Below, in pieces: positions 47,499 through 49,230 of a DNA stretch of 64,000 nt (the first letter of the stretch is position 1; every line of letters begins with the position of its first letter). Source of the DNA: Flavobacterium sinopsychrotolerans (GTDB lineage Bacteria; Bacteroidota; Bacteroidia; Flavobacteriales; Flavobacteriaceae). The stretch lies in NCBI RefSeq assembly GCF_900110375.1, contig NZ_FODN01000001.1, positions 124,001-188,000 of the forward strand, in the 5' to 3' direction. The notes under the pieces were generated by a model. It saw only the letters and a program-made list of their open reading frames with translations, had not been told where the DNA came from and searched no databases. The position numbers and the translations under genes are program-made.

Positions 47499-47801
47499 TT
47501 AAATGTGCGAACTTATTTTTTCTTTCCTTTTTACCAACATTCTCTGTAAGGATTCCGCCGAAAGCTCAACCGCTTCTTCGAAAGTTTTACACTGTTTTTT
47601 AACCAAAAAATCATCTCCGGGAACATTTATTTTTACCTCGGCAATTTTATTCTCTTTATCACTTGTCTTTTCAACTTTCAAAAAAACATCCGCTGACACG
47701 ACTTTGTCATAATACTTTTCCAACTTGTCCAATCTTTCTTGAACAAAATCTACTAGCTTTTTGTCAACAGTAAAGTTAACTGCATGAACACTTACCTTCA
47801 T
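47499..47801 (-). CDS. hpf: Ribosome hibernation-promoting factor (HPF/RaiA family)
   Basis: A small cytosolic protein that binds the 30S subunit and silences or dimerises ribosomes under stress. The start at 47801 (M-K-V-S-V-H-A-V-N-F) matches the family; an ATG two codons earlier is also possible. The 100-residue protein has the conserved N-terminal beta strand and the basic helix ending K-R-K-E-K-I. The short-HPF form without a C-terminal dimerisation domain is seen. It follows xerC and rpsU on one strand. Confidence 0.9.
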   Translation of the reverse strand: MKVSVHAVNFTVDKKLVDFVQERLDKLEKYYDKVVSADVFLKVEKTSDKENKIAEVKINVPGDDFLVKKQCKTFEEAVELSAESLQRMLVKRKEKISSHI

Positions 47802-47831
47802 AATCATCTTTTTTAATTGTTAAACACTTTA

Positions 47832-48728
47832 TCACTTCCGTCCTCGAGGATGAGCATCTTTATGTATACTTTTGAGTTCTGACAAACTGTTATGAGTATA
47901 TACTTGTGTAGACGCGAGACTGGAATGCCCTAATAATTCTTTTACTGAATTTAAATCTGCTCCATTATTTAATAGATGTGTCGCAAAAGCATGCCTCAGT
48001 ATATGAGGACTTTTTTTTACCTTTTCAGACACAGTACTAAAGTAAGAATTTATTAATCGATACACAAAAGAATCATTTAATTTTAACCCTTTTTTTGTGA
48101 GAAAAAAATAATCATTATCAACAATATCCAACAATAAAGCTCTTTCATTTAAGTACAATGAAAATTGATCTGTAATTACTGGCAAAACAGGAAGAATACG
48201 CTCTTTGTTTCGTTTACCCAGCACCTTAATTGTGTTAGTTGACAAATCAATATTTGTCGTTTTTAGATAAATCAACTCCGCTCTTCGCATTCCTGAAGTA
48301 TATAGCAAGTCAATTATAAGTTTATTTCTAATCTCTTCAAAACCAATTGCATCTTGCATTTGATTTAAAACAGCCTTAACTTCCTTTTCAGAAAAAGGAA
48401 TCTGTATTATTTTAGGAGCTTTGAGTGCCTTGTGTTTCAACAGCGGACTAACCTCTATTTGTTTTATTTTTAATAGAAATTTATAAAATGCTTTTAAGGA
48501 TGCAATTTTTCTATTAACCGAGGCATTTGATATATCATCATCAACAAGAGACACAATCCAAGTTCTAATTTGATTATAATTGACTTGCTCAATATTCTCT
48601 TGATCAAAATGAACCGAATTGAATAATTCAAAAGAAGCAATATCATTGCAATACGCAACTACAGTATGCGAAGAATATTTTTTCTCCAACTGTAGATAAT
48701 CCCGAAATGCATCTTTATTAGTAGCCAT
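47832..48728 (-). CDS. xerC: Tyrosine recombinase XerC-like
   Basis: The 298-residue site-specific recombinase has a SAM-like N-terminal DNA-binding domain (to about 100) and the catalytic domain. The catalytic set is R148 (S-G-M-R-R-A-E-L), K172, H242 and R245 (H-I-L-R-H), H268 (L-G-H-S-S) and nucleophile Y277 (V-Y-T-H). It is of XerC/D type that resolves chromosome dimers, rather than a phage integrase, judged by length and by its position between rpsU and hpf. It is likely co-transcribed past a hairpin at its start codon. Confidence 0.9.
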   Translation of the reverse strand: MATNKDAFRDYLQLEKKYSSHTVVAYCNDIASFELFNSVHFDQENIEQVNYNQIRTWIVSLVDDDISNASVNRKIASLKAFYKFLLKIKQIEVSPLLKHKALKAPKIIQIPFSEKEVKAVLNQMQDAIGFEEIRNKLIIDLLYTSGMRRAELIYLKTTNIDLSTNTIKVLGKRNKERILPVLPVITDQFSLYLNERALLLDIVDNDYFFLTKKGLKLNDSFVYRLINSYFSTVSEKVKKSPHILRHAFATHLLNNGADLNSVKELLGHSSLASTQVYTHNSLSELKSIHKDAHPRGRK

Positions 48729-48735
48729 AAAAAAA

Positions 48736-48774
48736 CCGTTAGCATCAAAGTTATAAAACTTTAATGACTAACGG
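48736..48774 (-). terminator. Terminator or attenuator between rpsU and xerC
   Basis: A bipartite stem (CCGTTAG / CTAACGG, 48736-48742 and 48768-48774, with inner AAAGTT / AACTTT) is followed on the minus strand by seven T that run directly into the xerC ATG. It should limit xerC and hpf expression from the rpsU promoter. Confidence 0.65.
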
Positions 48775-48797
48775 TACTTTATTCTAATAGATATTGA

Positions 48798-48992
48798 CTA
48801 ACTCTCTAAGTTATCTCTCATATTTTGGATATAAGCCGCTTTTTGAATTTTGATTCTATTTGTAACTGAAGGCTTAATAAAAGCAGTACGTGCTCTTAAT
48901 TGACGTACAGTTCCTGTTTTATCAAATTTTCTTTTGTAGCGTTTTAACGCTCTATCGATATTTTCTCCGTCTTTAATTGGTATAATTAACAT
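48798..48992 (-). CDS. rpsU: 30S ribosomal protein S21
   Basis: The 64-residue bS21 sits by the 3' end of 16S rRNA. I placed the start at 48992 (M-L-I-I-P-I-K-D-G-E-N-I); a farther upstream ATG (49034) lies before the ribosome binding site. The conserved R-A-L-K-R-Y-K-R-K-F core is present. In Flavobacterium, bS21 helps hide the anti-Shine-Dalgarno sequence, and ribosomes lacking it prefer mRNAs with strong Shine-Dalgarno sites, including rpsU itself. The site in front of this gene fits that scheme. Confidence 0.96.
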   Translation of the reverse strand: MLIIPIKDGENIDRALKRYKRKFDKTGTVRQLRARTAFIKPSVTNRIKIQKAAYIQNMRDNLES

Positions 48993-49000
48993 AATATAGA

Positions 49001-49012
49001 CACCCCCTTTCT
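49001..49012 (-). promoter_or_regulatory. Extended Shine-Dalgarno sequence of rpsU
   Basis: On the minus strand AGAAAGGGGGTG pairs with the conserved anti-Shine-Dalgarno sequence of 16S rRNA over 12 bases, with one G-U pair, eight bases before the rpsU ATG. Other genes in this window show no comparable site. Confidence 0.85.
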
Positions 49013-49021
49013 TTAAGTGTG

Positions 49022-49029
49022 CAAAAGTA
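49022..49029 (-). promoter_or_regulatory. Putative -7 element of the rpsU promoter
   Basis: On the minus strand TACTTTTG matches TAnnTTTG, 29 bases before the rpsU start. The transcript would begin just upstream of the Shine-Dalgarno site. Confidence 0.55.
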
Positions 49030-49120
49030 AACATTATTTTGAATTACGAGTCATGAATTGCAATTTATTTTGAGTGTACTTGCAAAACATCAGTTCCGTT
49101 TAACGATTACGTTTTCATTT

Positions 49121-49194: not shown

Positions 49195-49230
49195 AAAAAA
49201 AGAGTCAAAAACAAAATGACTCTTTTTTTT
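49195..49230 (-). terminator. Intrinsic terminator of the acyl-CoA dehydrogenase gene
   Basis: Arms AAAAAAAGAGTCA and TGACTCTTTTTTT (49195-49207 and 49217-49229) form a perfect stem 70 bases after the gene's stop on the minus strand. Confidence 0.75.

Follow-up and report, generated by a model that had tools for sequence, protein, structure and literature searches.

The 64-kb stretch of Flavobacterium sinopsychrotolerans DNA analysed here (the window) raised the question of what an extended Shine-Dalgarno sequence does in front of rpsU, the gene of ribosomal protein bS21, and whether its effect would reach the genes downstream. On the minus strand, positions 49012-49001 read AGAAAGGGGGTG, followed by the 8-nt spacer TCTATATT and the rpsU ATG at 48992. 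When paired by RNAduplex with the 16S rRNA tail ...CACCUCCUUUCU, which is that of the genus Flavobacterium (PMC9976891 and general knowledge) and not the genome's own, the sequence formed 12 continuous pairs, one of them G-U, at -18.4 kcal/mol. This assembly yielded no 16S gene in pattern and Rfam searches, and the tail was found in one of the 60 genomes of relatives searched and was absent from the other 59. The site had been described earlier from the letters of the window, and its twelve bases, coordinates, strand, single G-U pair and eight-base spacer all proved to be exact.

The rpsU site ranked first in pairing energy among 11,634 22-nt windows covering both strands of the 64 kb. When the 50 candidate ORFs of the window were scanned with an 11-nt tail, rpsU reached -16.7 kcal/mol and the second best ORF -7.2 kcal/mol, which bears out the observation in the earlier note that tuf and the other ribosomal protein genes are without such a site. 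The mean pairing of the window ORFs was weaker in the first-ATG regions than in a mock region further upstream (-0.8 vs -1.7). These per-gene energies refer to the 64-kb window, and genome-wide uniqueness (3.5 Mb) refers to matches of the pattern RRRGGRGGTG, which occurred 17 times, compared with 36 times for the reversed pattern used as a control. Of the 17, the rpsU site alone was suitably spaced from the start of a recognisable gene.

The coding sequence behind the site (48798..48992, minus strand) specifies a bS21 of 64 aa, which scored 49.7 bits with TIGR00030 (cut-off 28.95) and has Y at residue 54. Upstream, TACTTTTG (49022..49029, minus strand) matches the Bacteroidota -7 promoter element TAnnTTTG, and an element of this kind stood in front of 143 of the 145 rpsU genes that have the extended site. 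Another ATG at 49034, given in the ORF listing, was rejected as the rpsU start since it lies upstream of this predicted promoter element. By analogy with F. johnsoniae, where rpsU is transcribed alone and with a 25-nt leader (PMC9976891), the mRNA leader is predicted to span about 25 nt (48993..49017, minus strand); it would be weakly structured and mostly taken up by the site. The gene is followed by a predicted intrinsic terminator, a stem-loop with seven T in the gap between rpsU and xerC (48729..48775, minus strand), whose last base directly precedes the xerC ATG. On the other side, a GAGTCA/TGACTC hairpin with T-runs was noticed at 49199-49224, after the upstream acyl-CoA dehydrogenase gene, so that rpsU appears isolated on both sides. 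The predicted promoter of its own, short leader and terminator suggest that rpsU is transcribed here as a unit of one gene.

In F. johnsoniae, mutation or depletion of bS21 raises the expression of reporters with strong sites, including rpsU'-gfp (McNutt 2023, NAR, PMC9976891), and ribosomes without bS21 initiate faster on rpsU (PMC9976891). According to the same study, rpsU is typically the sole gene with such a strong site per genome, and about 80% of Flavobacteriales qualify. The window site lies within the published limits (12 pairs and -18.4 kcal/mol, for 9-13 bp and stronger than -13 kcal/mol). We consider it highly likely, with a probability of about 0.92, that AGAAAGGGGGTG serves as cis element in an autoregulation of bS21, the mechanism of which in this species we infer from the F. 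johnsoniae experiments. In replete ribosomes the 16S 3' tail would be hidden by bS21, bS18 and bS6, and ordinary genes would be read without Shine-Dalgarno pairing. In ribosomes without bS21 the tail would be free to pair with the 12-base site, and the quicker initiation on rpsU would restore bS21. With rpsU as a predicted one-gene unit, the loop would be limited to bS21.

The absence of the site from close relatives had been named beforehand as an outcome that would speak against this reading, and the site was present in every relative examined. It was found in all 80 Flavobacterium-type loci fetched (L001-L080), and a strict site pattern matched in 250 of 300 genus genomes. Loss of the site from genomes that fail this pattern was considered and rejected: among 30 such genomes, a bS21 match was obtained in 23, each of which kept the site, with a different spacer, mostly of 6-8 nt. 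When Flavobacterium and its SD-bearing relatives were taken together, the extended site preceded 145 of 145 xerC-linked rpsU genes, which are related sequences and do not represent 145 independent events. Seven of the ten core positions (2-11) were invariant in these genes, and the remaining three varied between A and G only, opposite U, so that pairing was kept. This pattern of conservation points to selection acting on the pairing.

Beyond the family, at the level of order and class, the distribution of the site was patchy, in line with the published survey (PMC9976891), and the adjacency of rpsU and xerC was also retained in families without the site. A strict tie between loss of the site and loss of Tyr54 was rejected, Tyr being retained by the majority of lineages that lack the site; since other Bacteroidota without the site keep Tyr54, this residue alone does not predict the loop. 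One family without the site (f5; L187, L188, L190-L194, L197, L198, L215 and L224) has a strongly conserved rpsU leader of its own, AAAATGAGATGTAA, and in several of its genomes His54 replaces Tyr54. The extended site was absent from phage bS21 genes in IMG/VR (L126-L145). Most of these phage genes share an upstream TATTTATTATCATA or a close variant, which is perhaps a late-promoter-like element. A further IMG/VR record (L125) was rejected as a phage bS21 gene without the site, as it proved to be bacterial chromosomal DNA, with rpsU, xerC and hpf, that had been entered as a viral contig.

The place of the G-U pair differed among congeners. In the window site it lies in the core (GGGGG), whereas in most congeners it is at the fourth position (GAGAGGAGG). 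The leaders of Flavobacterium loci (L001-L080 and L102-L124) switched repeatedly between GAGAGGAGG and GAAAGGGGG, with nearly always exactly one G-U pair. When mapped on a tree of XerC from 103 Flavobacterium loci, the core-G-U form and the common position-four form required 11 state changes, at least eight of which were forced by well-supported branches. Forms with no G-U pair were rare in this tree (4) and forms with two were absent; two examples with two G-U pairs occurred among the matches listed in the genus-wide pattern search. The predominance of sites with a single G-U pair might suggest that a precise strength of pairing has been selected for, but the nearest-neighbour energies of the alternative forms are at most about 1 kcal/mol apart and do not support this. 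Leader exchange by recombination, or selection, could be the cause of the switching.

A search with a divergent bS21 uncovered a second bS21 clade in about 107 of 399 Flavobacteriaceae genomes, or about a quarter, the figure being the count of listed matches at an E of 7e-24 or better. Its members have KRKHRN at positions 20-25 instead of KRKFDK or KRKFDR and keep Tyr54. In two-copy genomes the extended site preceded the xerC-linked rpsU in 25 of 25 cases (-17.0 to -17.1) and the second bS21 gene in none of 25 (+1.9 to -5.1); a related copy in the genome G573 reached -9.8. Among 30 second-copy loci examined, rpoD lay upstream of the gene in 18. Ten genomes contained the second copy only, and in all eight such genomes checked xerC was retained with neither rpsU nor the site within 900 bases before it, hpf lying beside it in seven. 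The genome studied here has only the xerC-linked kind. The list of taxa with bS21 paralogs in McNutt names no Bacteroidota (PMC9976891), and we found no description of a second bS21 gene without the site in the open literature searched. The occurrence of two bS21 genes in one genome, one with the site and the other lacking it, lies outside the window and is possibly new. Tentatively, and at somewhat less than even odds, we suggest that there are two regimes of bS21 supply in Flavobacteriaceae, one based on the self-sensing xerC-linked rpsU and the other on a divergent second gene without the site, often behind rpoD. The second would have replaced the first in some lineages, abolishing the loop and perhaps shifting the mRNA preference of the ribosomes. 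The paired genes, together with the lineages from which the site has disappeared, would offer a natural comparison for testing what purpose bS21 autoregulation serves.

The comparison with relatives also bears on the alternatives to autoregulation. The 16 other RRRGGRGGTG matches in the genome, none of which stands before a recognisable gene start, would suit the explanation that the site is a chance purine run. However, the site is the best of the 11,634 windows and lies at the proper distance from its ATG, and its conservation in 145 of 145 relatives, with all core changes preserving pairing, has already refuted this explanation, to which we give practically no weight. A plain strong ribosome-binding site that provides constitutive rpsU output with no feedback is improbable as well, if less so. 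Extensive pairing could simply stabilise initiation, and unusually stable 70S complexes are reported to form on rpsU with wild-type ribosomes too (PMC9976891). Against constitutive output stand tuf and the ribosomal protein genes in the window, which are highly expressed and have no such site, and the second bS21 gene of many relatives, which is without it. Moreover, the F. johnsoniae reporters react to the bS21 level (PMC9976891).

The earlier note had proposed an autoregulatory loop sensing bS21 and had placed xerC and hpf under the same signal. The loop fits and is already published for F. johnsoniae, and the sequence here agrees with the published sequence criteria, but the extension to the downstream genes was not borne out. 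Downstream of rpsU lie a xerC-like tyrosine recombinase gene (47832..48728, minus strand), for which XerC is the best model although the match is under its strict cut-off, and hpf, encoding a ribosome hibernation factor (47499..47807, minus strand; TIGR00741 above cut-off). Control of both by bS21 shortage through their common locus would agree with the retained gene order, xerC being within 400 nt in all 104 Flavobacterium loci and hpf present in 103 of them. In each of these 104 loci, however, a terminator-like hairpin with a T-run separates rpsU from xerC. The hairpin is recognisable across species, with variable inner arms; in the window it folds far better than shuffled sequences (z = -6.2), and in 67 of the 104 loci the T-run ends at the base preceding the xerC ATG. 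In the window (48722-48775) the U-run stops precisely at the xerC start codon, so that the mRNA of xerC would come either from read-through of the terminator or from a promoter that has escaped recognition. In addition, neither xerC nor hpf has a strong site in the window scan, the published effect concerns translation initiation on rpsU, and xerC persists in the eight second-copy-only genomes checked, in which rpsU and its site are lost. With a predicted terminator in between and no site of their own, xerC and hpf would not be reached by the published translational switch, and we regard their control by bS21 as slightly less probable still than constitutive rpsU output. By read-through, the amount of transcript of both genes may still depend on the rpsU promoter.

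The locus shares with that of F. johnsoniae (PMC9976891) the same gene, pairing beyond -13 kcal/mol, Tyr54 and a single strong site per genome, as well as a short leader and a one-gene transcript, which here are predicted. It differs in the species and in the G-U pair in the core. With the bS21 tail-hiding system of 2021, in which Tyr54 of bS21 stacks on the 16S tail (as related in PMC9976891 and PMC9723584), it shares a bS21 with Tyr54, and rpsF and rpsR are also present in this genome. The site is real but ordinary for its group and, as judged by these features, is a further instance of the already known bS21 autoregulation (McNutt 2023). On the evidence of sequence, it adds a further species to one of the rare clear examples of specialised ribosomes in bacteria.
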